Source: Halobium salinum (GTDB taxonomy: Archaea; Halobacteriota; Halobacteria; Halobacteriales; Haloferacaceae). Taken from it: a stretch of DNA of 64,000 nt. Position numbers and translations under genes: made by a program. The notes beneath the pieces are model-generated. The model searched no databases, had not been told where the DNA came from, and saw only the letters and a list, made by a program, of their open reading frames with translations. Location: positions 124,001 through 188,000 of the forward strand of contig NZ_JAODIW010000010.1 in the NCBI RefSeq assembly GCF_026586625.1, read 5' to 3'. Positions within the stretch are counted from its first letter, which is position 1. Each line of letters opens with the position of its first letter. Shown here one piece after another: positions 22,782 to 26,392 of this stretch.

Positions 22782-23425
22782 CGGTCGGGGTCCGTGGCCT
22801 CCGTCCGGTCGGTCTCGTCCGGCCGGCCGTCGTCCGCCGTCGATTCCGTGGCGCCATGGTCGTCGGCTTGTGCTCCGAACCCGGGCTCGCCGAGGTAGTC
22901 CACGAAGTCCACCGTGCCGGCGCTCGGCTCGCGCTCGCCACGAATCACGGCCTCGATTGCGGCGGCGACGGTCTCGGGCGATTCGCCGGTCGTGTCGATT
23001 TCGTACACCTTCTCGGCGCCGTGGCGCTCGAAGGCTTCGGAGAGAATCACGTCGAGCGCCTCGCTCTCTGCGTTCTCGCGGGCTTTGGCCGTCGAGTCGC
23101 CCCGGCCGACCAGCCGGTCTTCGAGCTTTCCGGGCGCACAGCGGAGGACGACGACCCGGTCGGCGTCCAACCGGTGGGCGAGGTGGGATTCGACCACCAC
23201 GACCTCCTCGGCACCGGCCTCGGGGTGCCACGCGATGTCCTCCTGTTCGCCGATCCACTCGACGACGGCGTCGAGGTCGGCGACGAGGGAGCCGCGCTGC
23301 TCGTCGCGCTCGGTCCAGAGGTCGTGGTCGTCGATGATGTCGTTGAGGTGGACCACCTTGGCGTCGAGCAGGTCCGTCGCCGTCGTCTTCCCCGTCCCCG
23401 GGGTGCCGGTGACGACGACCCTCAC
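22778..23425 (-). CDS. Adenylate kinase-type P-loop nucleotide kinase
   Basis: The 215-residue protein begins MRVVVTGTPGTGKTTATDLL with a P-loop at residues 7-15 and continues with HLNDIIDDHDLW and a LID-like RLVGRGDSTAKARENAESEAL. This is the small archaeal adenylate kinase/Fap7 (hCINAP) class, which has roles in nucleotide metabolism and in 18S/16S rRNA maturation in relatives. The C-terminal 45 residues are acidic and probably disordered. It starts at GTG 23425, overlapping the hisC stop by GTGA, and ends overlapping the next gene by ATGA. Confidence 0.88.
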   Translation of the reverse strand: MRVVVTGTPGTGKTTATDLLDAKVVHLNDIIDDHDLWTERDEQRGSLVADLDAVVEWIGEQEDIAWHPEAGAEEVVVVESHLAHRLDADRVVVLRCAPGKLEDRLVGRGDSTAKARENAESEALDVILSEAFERHGAEKVYEIDTTGESPETVAAAIEAVIRGEREPSAGTVDFVDYLGEPGFGAQADDHGATESTADDGRPDETDRTEATDPDR

Positions 23426-24555
23426 GGCTGGGCCTCCAGCTCCCGGAGCACCGCGTTGAGCGTCTCGACGGCCGCTCTCGTCTGCGCCTCGGTGCCACAG
23501 GAGATGCGGACGCAGGTCGGCAGGCCGAACGAGGAGCAGTCGCGGACGATGACGCCCTCGCGCTGGCTGGCGTCGGCGACGGCCGCCGCCGCGCGAGACT
23601 CCGTCTCGCTGCCCTTCGAGCCACGCTCGAAGACATCCCCTACCTCGGCAAGCACGAAGTTCCCCCCGCTCTCCCACGTCGGGGCGTCGAGTTCGTCGTA
23701 CATGTGCTCGCGCGCCCAGCGGGCGGTCTCGACCGTCGTCTCGACGTGCTCGTCGTCGTCGAGCGCGGCGAGGGCGGCTCGACAGGCGACTTCCGAGGCC
23801 GCGAACGGTGTGTTCACTCTGGCGTAAGCATCTGCCCACGCCTCGGGGACGACCGCGTAGCCGATACGGAGGCCAGCGAGTCCGTACGCCTTTGAGAACG
23901 TCCGCGTCACGGCGACGTTGTCGGAGTCGTCGAGCAGCGTGACGGCCGAGGGTTCCTCGGTGAACTCGCCGTAGGCCTCGTCGACGACGACGAGCGTGTG
24001 GTCGTCGACGCCGTTTGCGAGCGCCTCGATTTCGGGGAGCGGGCAGACCGACCCCGTGGGGTTGTGGGGCGTCGTCACGTAGACGATTCGCTCCCCCTCG
24101 TAGTGGTCGAGGATACCCTCGGCGGTTTGGGCGAAGTCGTCCTCGGCGGCGAGGGGGTACTCCGCGACCTCCCCGTGGTGGTAGCGCGCGCTCATCCCGT
24201 AGTAGGCGAAGCCGGGCGTCGGGACGAGTACCTCGTCGTCGGGGTCGAGCATCGCCCGCGAGAGGTAGTCGAGCGCGCCGTCGGCCCCGGGGCTGACCCA
24301 CACCTGTTCGGACGCGACGTTCCACTTCTCGGCCAGCGCGTCGGTGAGGTCGGTGTGGGAGGCCTTCGGATAGACGCCGACGTTCGCGGCGGTGTCGCGG
24401 ATAGCCTCGACGGCCGCCGGGCTCGGCCCGAACGGGTTCTCGTTCGAGGAGAGTTTCACGAGCTCCTCGGGGGCCATCCCGAGTTCGCGGGCGACCTCCT
24501 CTGTGCCGCGGCCGGGCACGTACGGGGCGTTCGCGGAGAGGTCCCGTGGTTGCAT
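23422..24555 (-). CDS. hisC: Histidinol-phosphate aminotransferase
   Basis: The 377-residue PLP-dependent class II aminotransferase of histidine biosynthesis converts imidazole-acetol phosphate to histidinol phosphate. The PLP lysine is in TRTFSKAYGLAGLRIGY (Lys222). The substrate motif KLSSNENPFGPSP (about 34-46) and NPTGS near 165 are typical. It is the first gene of a three-gene overlapping operon with a kinase and a lipid-headgroup transferase, with no other his genes nearby. A TTAAGAA box lies about 32 bases upstream. The family also contains tyrosine/phenylalanine aminotransferases, so the histidine role is very likely but not proven. Confidence 0.9.
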   Translation of the reverse strand: MQPRDLSANAPYVPGRGTEEVARELGMAPEELVKLSSNENPFGPSPAAVEAIRDTAANVGVYPKASHTDLTDALAEKWNVASEQVWVSPGADGALDYLSRAMLDPDDEVLVPTPGFAYYGMSARYHHGEVAEYPLAAEDDFAQTAEGILDHYEGERIVYVTTPHNPTGSVCPLPEIEALANGVDDHTLVVVDEAYGEFTEEPSAVTLLDDSDNVAVTRTFSKAYGLAGLRIGYAVVPEAWADAYARVNTPFAASEVACRAALAALDDDEHVETTVETARWAREHMYDELDAPTWESGGNFVLAEVGDVFERGSKGSETESRAAAAVADASQREGVIVRDCSSFGLPTCVRISCGTEAQTRAAVETLNAVLRELEAQP

Positions 24556-24757
24556 TTCTTGTCTATTCGTGTGGGCGGGCGGTTCTTAAGGGTGCTCACA
24601 CGGGATTCGTGAGTGGACGGTGAAGCCGGCGGGAATCGAGCGAGTTTTTTGAGGTGACATACAGTGACTCGGCTCCAAGAGGTAGAGCGTGTGTCTACGA
24701 CAATTGGTATCGGCAATTTTATAGTCACTTGTCTTATCAGTAAGAGAACTGGACTGA

Positions 24758-25543
24758 ATGACATCAAGCAAGCCGAGGATGTCGTGGAGACAATGGTCGT
24801 GTATTATCTACCTCTTGTTGACTCCTTTGCTCACTATCTACGTCTTTCTGCACCTAATCCCGAACAATTGGATTCTCGGTATAGTTACTGATCTGATAGC
24901 TATCAATTTCCATATAAAAGCTCTGATTGCTATTATTGAACCTTATCACAAGAAGGAGAGCGATACGTTTCGACAGCCATCAGAGAAGCAGAAAAAGAGG
25001 CTTGACCAACTCCGGGAGGTCGCTAACATCAGGGTGAGCGACGTATGGGTATCTAACCAACTGAAGAGATATATGCCTGTGATATTCTTAGGCGGATTCC
25101 GATTCAATCGACATCTGATTGCCGACAAGACGTTTTTCTCCCAACATTCTGAGAAGGAACAAGAGGCTATTATGATTTTTGAAGCATACCTTGCGAAGAG
25201 ATACTATCACGTGCTGACGATGGTAACAGTCACTCTACCACTTCTACTCTACTTTTTTATAATCGCACAAGTAGAACGGCTCCTGATTCCTCAACTTGGG
25301 CAGTGGCCGTTTATACTCGGCGCCGTGCTCTCGATTATTCTGTATTCGCTAACTCTCCGACAGTTTGTGTATCGTGGGCTTCGATTGGCCATTGACCATA
25401 CCGACGCAGAGACTGTGAAAAATGTGGTCGAAAAGGCGGTTGAGAACGAGGGTAAGAACAGAAAGGGTGTAGATGTTAACGCGGCGGATATACTCATCTA
25501 TCCAACGCCCGCTCAGCGGCTTCGGTATATCCGGGAACAGTAG
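24758..25543 (+). CDS. Membrane protein resembling an inactive M48 metallopeptidase, in an A+T-rich island
   Basis: The 261-residue protein is coded at far lower G+C than its surroundings and uses A/T-ending codons. Two helices lie near the N-terminus (12-60) and two more near 150-205. The order of elements follows M48 (HtpX/Ste24) peptidases: a pre-catalytic strand (PVIFLGGFRFNRHLIADKTFF), an acidic approach (SEKEQEAIMI), then the catalytic helix, two membrane helices and a C-terminal YPTPAQRLRYIRE like the family HPxxxxR box. In place of HExxH it has FEAYL (141-145), so both zinc histidines are gone, and the downstream ExxAD is not intact. It may be a pseudoenzyme or scaffold. Base composition suggests transfer. 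Confidence 0.6.
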   Translation: MTSSKPRMSWRQWSCIIYLLLTPLLTIYVFLHLIPNNWILGIVTDLIAINFHIKALIAIIEPYHKKESDTFRQPSEKQKKRLDQLREVANIRVSDVWVSNQLKRYMPVIFLGGFRFNRHLIADKTFFSQHSEKEQEAIMIFEAYLAKRYYHVLTMVTVTLPLLLYFFIIAQVERLLIPQLGQWPFILGAVLSIILYSLTLRQFVYRGLRLAIDHTDAETVKNVVEKAVENEGKNRKGVDVNAADILIYPTPAQRLRYIREQ

Positions 25544-25549
25544 TGGTCG

Positions 25550-25573
25550 CTCACGAACTACTCCTGTCGTGAG
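25550..25573 (+). terminator. Hairpin after the M48-like gene
   Basis: CTCACGA (25550-25556) and TCGTGAG (25567-25573) form a perfect 7-base stem with a 10-base loop, 6 bases after the stop codon of the A+T-rich gene. It probably marks the 3' end of its transcript, although no T-run follows. Confidence 0.45.
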
Positions 25574-25740
25574 TCCTGCAAGCGCGGCAGCTCTCTGGAA
25601 GCTGAGTCAGTTGGCGACGAGTTGAAACTAAGTCGGAGAAACAGCGCTCCCGAAAGCCCCTGGGCGCTCGACGAAGGAAGGCGACTGGCCCTTTTCGAAA
25701 CCCCATCCACTGTACAGCCTCACGCCTCCCCACCCCCCGA

Positions 25741-25933: not shown

Positions 25934-26392
25934 CTACCCGAAATCGGGCAAGTCGTCCGGCGCCTCGTACTCGGCCTCCCAGTCGATGTACTCCTCCTTC
26001 AGCACGTCACACACCACCTGCCCGAGTTCGGTCAGCCCGGCGTTGATAGAGGACACCTGCCCCCAACTCGTCAGCTCCGGATGCAGCTTTCGCTCCTTCC
26101 AGTCCTCCGGCAGGCCGGGCGCGTGGTACCCCACGCGGTCGGCGAAGTCGTCCCAGAAGAAGTCGAAGCGCTCCAGCAGGTCCAAATCGAGCACGATGTC
26201 CCACTGCTCCTCGGTCACCGACGTGTCCGTGGCCCACTGCTCGAAGGACTCGGCCCACGCGCCCTCACGCAGGAACGCACCGAGTTCCTCCCGGCGGTAG
26301 TTCGCGTCGCCGACGACTTCGGCGTCCTCGTACTCGTTGGGGTCCACGGATGCGAGTTCCGGCGGCGGCGGGGTCTCGACGTCGAGGCTCAT
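25934..26392 (-). CDS. Conserved-looking acidic protein of unknown function
   Basis: The 152-residue protein is strongly acidic, rich in Trp and Tyr, and probably all-helical after residue 30 (YRREELGAFLREGAWAESFEQWATDTSVTEEQWDIVLDLDLLERFDFFWDDF). It has no signal peptide, membrane helix or cysteine cluster. I do not recognise the family. Codon use and acidity fit a real haloarchaeal gene, and ATG 26392 avoids an Arg-rich N-terminal extension. It precedes a thioesterase on the same strand with 49 bases between them. Confidence 0.65.
   Translation of the reverse strand: MSLDVETPPPPELASVDPNEYEDAEVVGDANYRREELGAFLREGAWAESFEQWATDTSVTEEQWDIVLDLDLLERFDFFWDDFADRVGYHAPGLPEDWKERKLHPELTSWGQVSSINAGLTELGQVVCDVLKEEYIDWEAEYEAPDDLPDFG

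Follow-up and report, generated by a model that had tools for sequence, protein, structure and literature searches.

A probably transferred gene for a Ste24/HtpX-type membrane protein without zinc ligands in Halobium salinum, an outlier of a haloarchaeal pseudo-M48 family

Introduction

Peptidases of family M48, which include HtpX and the CAAX proteases Ste24p and ZMPSTE24, hold zinc by the two histidines of an HExxH motif and a downstream glutamate, and carry a C-terminal HPxxxxR box. According to PMC9601121, the antiviral role of human ZMPSTE24 does not need catalytic activity, and its catalytically inactive E336A form recovers IFITM3 better in pull-downs. A survey of the literature on M48, HtpX and Ste24 proteins in archaea and on pseudoenzymes, covering titles and abstract openings with subscription papers mostly excluded, found no description of a haloarchaeal family of M48 homologues that have lost the motif (here pseudo-M48).

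Here we describe a gene in a 64-kb stretch of the Halobium salinum genome (4.46 Mb, 14 contigs); this whole stretch is termed the window. A first-pass annotation, made from the sequence alone, had proposed that an A+T-rich island in the window encodes a degenerate M48-type membrane protein, perhaps transferred from a defense or mobile context. We compare the gene product (the window protein) with active M48 enzymes and with its haloarchaeal relatives, and consider what a protein of this type may do.

Results

The G+C content of the window, measured in 786-bp segments, has a mean of 0.685 (sd 0.035) and falls to a minimum of 0.444 at position 24701, and all 300-bp segments below 0.55 G+C start within 24501-25351 and nowhere else in the 64 kb; the sharp local drop that the first-pass annotation had described is thus confirmed. 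The island contains one gene and its upstream region (Table 1). The G+C content of the gene is 0.455, with values of 0.519/0.321/0.527 at the three codon positions, whereas GC3 of its six neighbours lies between 0.83 and 0.94; its codon choice, and not just its amino acid content, is therefore foreign to its surroundings. A TATA-box-like element upstream of the start codon is a possible promoter element of the gene itself. The island had also been said to close with a 7-bp hairpin. The two arms do exist (CTCACGA, 25550-25556, and TCGTGAG, 25567-25573), but their frequency and fold are at chance level, there being 185 such 7-bp hairpins in the window (2.9 per kb; just 1 in 24560-25720) and 35 of 200 shuffles giving an equally good RNA fold (z -0.93). 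No T run follows the hairpin, and a role as terminator or as the end of an element was rejected on both grounds.

Table 1. Positions of the island, its gene and neighbouring features in the window
Feature	Position	Strand	Basis
A+T-rich island, the sole segment of the window below 55% G+C; one gene and upstream region	24646..25573		composition
261-aa membrane protein, Ste24/HtpX (M48) type without zinc ligands	24758-25543	+	single ORF
FEAYL, residues 141-145, at the HExxH position	25178..25192	+	alignment
Val204 in the column of the third zinc ligand, which is Glu in M48	25367..25369	+	alignment
YPTPAQR, residues 248-254, counterpart of the HPxxxxR box	25499..25519	+	alignment
TATA-box-like TTTTATA, ~38 bp before the start codon	24717..24723	+	read from sequence
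Inverted repeat with 7-bp arms after the stop codon, at chance level	25550..25573		sequence, RNA fold
Left neighbour, named by inspection as a hisC-like aminotransferase; composition normal	23422..24555	-	inspection, composition
Right neighbour, conserved uncharacterised gene, normal composition	25934..26392	-	found in 58/60 genomes of the family

The window protein has hydrophobic stretches at about residues 12-36, 39-61, 150-180 and 175-204. All three zinc ligands are lost: FEAYL occupies the aligned column of the HExxH motif and Val204 that of the downstream glutamate, and of the C-terminal box, which survives in altered form, Arg254 is kept. Each of these three departures or retentions had been read correctly in the first-pass annotation.

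Searched alone, the window protein hits none of the M48 models of Pfam and NCBIfam; a match to LacY_symp (16.4 bits, cut-off 24) was rejected as one of the generic kind that membrane helices produce. With the Pfam M48 model (PF01435, cut-off 20.3 bits), its relative L014 scores 15.0, below the cut-off, and the longer relative L011 scores 24.7, above it. A tblastn search with the window protein gave matches at E <= 0.001 in 19 of the 392 genomes of the order, mostly weak and mostly to proteins of ~370-380 aa, L011 among them. In profile comparisons, the window protein together with L014 matched seven long pseudo-M48 proteins at 98.6% (E 5e-16), and these seven in turn matched five true M48 proteins of the Halobium salinum genome at 96.1% (E 2.9e-9), in an alignment where HExxH, the Glu ligand and HPxxxxR fall in corresponding columns; ABC permeases, used as negative controls, stayed below 0.3%. 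Direct comparison with M48 reached only 9.4% (E 0.0035) for the window protein with L014 and 0.1% for the window protein by itself, so that the link to M48 runs via intermediates. A profile of pseudo-M48 sequences only (A5) retrieves Ste24p from the PDB on its own (E 3.9e-5).

The structural comparison agrees with this chain. An AlphaFold2 model from six sequences, five of which are pseudo-M48 relatives so that it is partly dependent on the profile evidence, is of middling confidence (pLDDT 64.6, pTM 0.58); a single-sequence model was poor (pLDDT 52.5) and was not used. The top 12 Foldseek rows for the six-sequence model are all ZMPSTE24/Ste24p (E 0.014-0.074, probability 0.97-1.00, TM about 0.5), and VIA gives Z values of 9.1-10.0 over 230-238 residues for the same proteins, followed by BepA (7.0) and BlaR1 (6.8). 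The comparison with Ste24, which had been suggested as a check, thus supports a predicted M48 fold for the window protein, as a non-peptidase homologue, and with the profile matches it upholds the proposal of a degenerate M48-type membrane protein.

With an E cut-off of 1e-8, a ten-row profile (A2) matches 290 of the order's 392 genomes, true M48 being included at the weak end. The family sample consisted of 78 distinct ORFs whose sequence was available at the motif, taken mostly from the top of the score range rather than at random, and 74 of these 78 have no HExxH. The four with an intact motif, homologues of a kind that the first-pass annotation had recommended seeking, are L025 (HESYH) and L127 (HEVAH), both short, and two M48 proteins of the Halobium salinum genome. 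None of the 74 HExxH-less rows has histidine at either His-ligand position or in the box, and one has the Glu ligand, whereas the box arginine is present in 74/74 and an aspartate after the lost Glu ligand in 73/74, the sole exception being the window protein. The retention of Arg and Asp where the zinc ligands are gone implies that the scaffold was kept and catalysis lost in the family. As far as can be judged from sequence, members of this large haloarchaeal family have as a rule lost HExxH, and the loss is not peculiar to the window gene, a point that the first-pass annotation had missed. The window gene is an outlier of that uncharacterised family.

Two layouts occur among the members: long proteins, of about 370 aa or longer, which have additional N-terminal sequence, and short proteins in a clade of their own (18 rows, branch support 100/96). 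From outside the haloarchaea, one protein (L159, genome G571) is an active M48 of 527 aa with HEIGH, EYRAD, HPSIEDR and many membrane helices; it carries an N-terminal extra domain and is rare among the genomes of its class, profile A2 matching 2 of 59. This suggests that the haloarchaeal pseudo-M48 proteins descended from an active, many-helix M48. Pseudo-M48 genes in plasmid records are annotated as 'peptidase' in five of seven cases and as 'hypothetical protein' in two. Two related Natrarchaeobaculum sulfurireducens plasmids (L169, L173) carry a tandem of pseudo-M48 genes with genes annotated as M48 in the vicinity; the upstream gene of the tandem forms one ORF in strain AArc-Mg and two ORFs in AArc1. 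At the five remaining plasmid loci, no gene is annotated as M48. Some long pseudo-M48 genes of different genera (L010, L013, L156, L158) adjoin an amidohydrolase gene, by inspection of the MTA/SAH deaminase type.

The single clear close relative of the window protein is L014 (275 aa; genome G132, of another haloarchaeal family), which matches residues 5-261 with E 1e-12. The two join in the tree at 100/97, both on long branches, that of the window protein being the longest in the tree (1.61), and the tree program warns that long-branch joins of this type may be false. The best tree places the pair among the pseudo rows (99/79), and omitting either leaves the other grouped with the pseudo rows (support 77 and 84), though with different nearest rows. 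An AU test did not reject a clade of the window protein and L014 with the active L025 and L127 (p 0.485). Given this value and the unstable nearest rows, the tree appears compatible both with loss of the active site in the family ancestor and with a separate loss in the window lineage.

Searched with a profile of the window protein and L014, only 1 of the 170 genomes of the family of the window gene matched, i.e. its own; the 28 genomes of the family of L014 gave L014's own genome and one long member, and a phylum-wide draw gave 6/392 at E <= 1e-6, five of which are long or active relatives. Pattern searches of the species genomes found no close relatives of the window protein. Presence throughout the family at the same locus with normal composition, which would speak against transfer, was not seen. 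The G+C difference between ORF and flanks over 78 member rows with enough flank, some genes being counted twice, averages +0.013 (sd 0.037), and L014 is the sole far outlier, at -0.169, compared with about -0.23 for the window gene. L014 is thus a second isolated A+T-rich single gene, whereas the other members examined match their surroundings. The outlying composition, the sporadic presence and the A+T-rich relative in another family together make it likely that the window gene arrived by transfer, as had been proposed.

The proposed defense or mobile context did not find support. PADLOC models gave no match to the window protein, L014 or L025; tblastn of the window protein in phage and plasmid records found no relative, nor did searches of viral contigs with the window protein, L014, L025 and A5, and no relatives of L014 were found in plasmids. 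The 64-kb window contains no tRNA, the island has no attachment sites and no long flanking repeats, and the flanking genes of both the window gene and L014 appear to be ordinary chromosomal ones. In 10/10 relatives examined, hisC lies well away from the right neighbour or on another contig, and in several of these a thioesterase-like gene and the right neighbour precede ileS (names by inspection), which is absent from the window. The junction in the window is thus itself a rearranged place, and because gene order there differs in the relatives a clean empty site was not obtained. An operon with an active protease was also considered and rejected at the window, where no such gene is present.

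Elsewhere in the Halobium salinum genome, a 20-kb stretch of low G+C for the genome (0.47-0.60; C11:1455000-1474999, L164) encodes a CBASS-like set (TIR-SAVED effector, E1-E2-JAB, cyclase and QueC), a protein of 644 aa that matches mad8 and a membrane M48 of 611 aa whose motif reads HEAYH; the stretch is possibly an integrated element to which the 611-aa M48 might belong. At another locus (L029, G134:C2:9001-29000), an intact short M48 (HESYH) adjoins a TnpB gene, and an RNA-ligase-like protein and a nucleotidyltransferase that has a helix-turn-helix are encoded nearby.

Discussion

The reading that we favor, with moderate confidence, is that the product of the window gene is a membrane protein with the Ste24/HtpX fold but no catalytic activity, which would act by binding. 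The gene, a short and fast-evolving offshoot of the haloarchaeal pseudo-M48 family, would have been transferred singly to the chromosome from a source of lower G+C. The predicted architecture comprises two N-terminal membrane helices, an alpha/beta core and a former active-site helix that would continue into a third membrane helix, followed by a fourth membrane helix and then the C-terminal box helix. On established chemistry, the absence of the zinc ligands excludes proteolysis of the M48 type, and from a protein that cannot cut we infer one that acts by binding. Its likeliest partners would be membrane-protein clients or one of the active M48 proteases of the host, which might thereby be sheltered or steered; the seven PF01435 matches in the Halobium salinum genome, three of them in tandem, mean that possible partners of the latter type exist. 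The retained scaffold is most simply read as that of a membrane protein which would bind a client or partner, with ZMPSTE24 as a precedent, and a non-proteolytic role of this kind, directed at clients or at active proteases, is probably the function.

With respect to descent, it is possible, if on balance doubtful, that the window protein derives from a short active M48 of the type of L025 or L127 by an independent loss of the active site, and is not a pseudo-M48 by origin. It shares the short layout with both proteins, their common clade is not rejected by the AU test, and FEAYL resembles the HEAYH of another M48 (L007) from an A+T-rich stretch of the same genome, but the grouping of L014 and the window protein with the pseudo rows in the best tree, which persists when either is omitted (support 77-84), and the 98.6% match with the long pseudo family argue against it. 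The length of its branch, the loss of an aspartate that almost all pseudo-M48 rows keep and the failure to find a close relative among the 169 further genomes of its family that were searched might also indicate a transferred relic, functionless and decaying, in which stop codons have yet to appear. This we consider unlikely, though far from negligible given the long branch and the lost aspartate, since the 261-codon frame is intact with coding-like composition at the three positions (0.52/0.32/0.53), the match with L014 spans nearly the entire protein and the TATA-like element is in place. Fast evolution and the loss of one scaffold residue would equally fit a resident gene under relaxed selection, whose low G+C did not come from transfer; its absence from all 169 other genomes and the agreement of long and short pseudo-M48 genes elsewhere with the composition of their hosts render this improbable.

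The occurrence of A+T-rich single-gene islands in two haloarchaeal families, the TnpB gene beside L025 and the restriction of viruses by human ZMPSTE24 without catalysis, as described in PMC9601121, are consistent with the window protein being part of an antivirus or mobile-element system. Nevertheless, the lack of any match in the PADLOC, phage, plasmid and viral collections and the ordinary chromosomal appearance of the neighbours of both the window gene and L014 make such a role quite improbable. Finally, a single protein without a direct family match could owe its motif alignment to chance and have no kinship with M48 at all, but the profile chain and the fold search, with their negative controls, largely refute this reading, which we regard as scarcely credible.

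Dead relatives of Ste24 and HtpX are apparently common in haloarchaea, and the window gene is the mobile-looking extreme of their wide, uncharacterised pseudo-Ste24 family. If the family binds clients without cutting them, it would provide a simple system for studying catalysis-independent roles of Ste24-type proteins. A bolder proposal, by analogy with dead ZMPSTE24, is that a fast-evolving, A+T-rich, single-gene branch of this large catalysis-free family moves between chromosomes, its products acting as non-proteolytic membrane guardians that might, for example, restrict viruses or shelter clients; this seems to us distinctly unlikely in its full form.

Comparison with described proteins places the window protein as follows. 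The haloarchaeal proteins of ~370-400 aa that bear the label 'peptidase' or 'hypothetical protein' (e.g. WP_340696314.1, WP_117366892.1) have likewise lost HExxH, but possess about 110-120 more N-terminal residues than the short window protein, and their family fits the composition of its hosts whereas the window protein is encoded by A+T-rich DNA. Relative to HtpX and other haloarchaeal M48 proteins (PF01435), the core, the active-site helix and the C-terminal box are similarly placed, although the window protein has no zinc ligand of any kind and no Pfam M48 match. BlaR1 (M56) shows a weaker fold likeness (VIA Z 6.8) and, unlike the window protein, is a sensor with an active zinc protease domain. 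The best fold matches are Ste24p and ZMPSTE24 (CAAX proteases, M48; 4il3, 4aw6), which have the same order of elements and from which the window protein differs in lacking both HExxH and the Glu ligand and in having fewer membrane helices. With iRhoms and other pseudoproteases, which are of other fold and family, it would have in common the principle of an inactive protease in the membrane to which clients bind.
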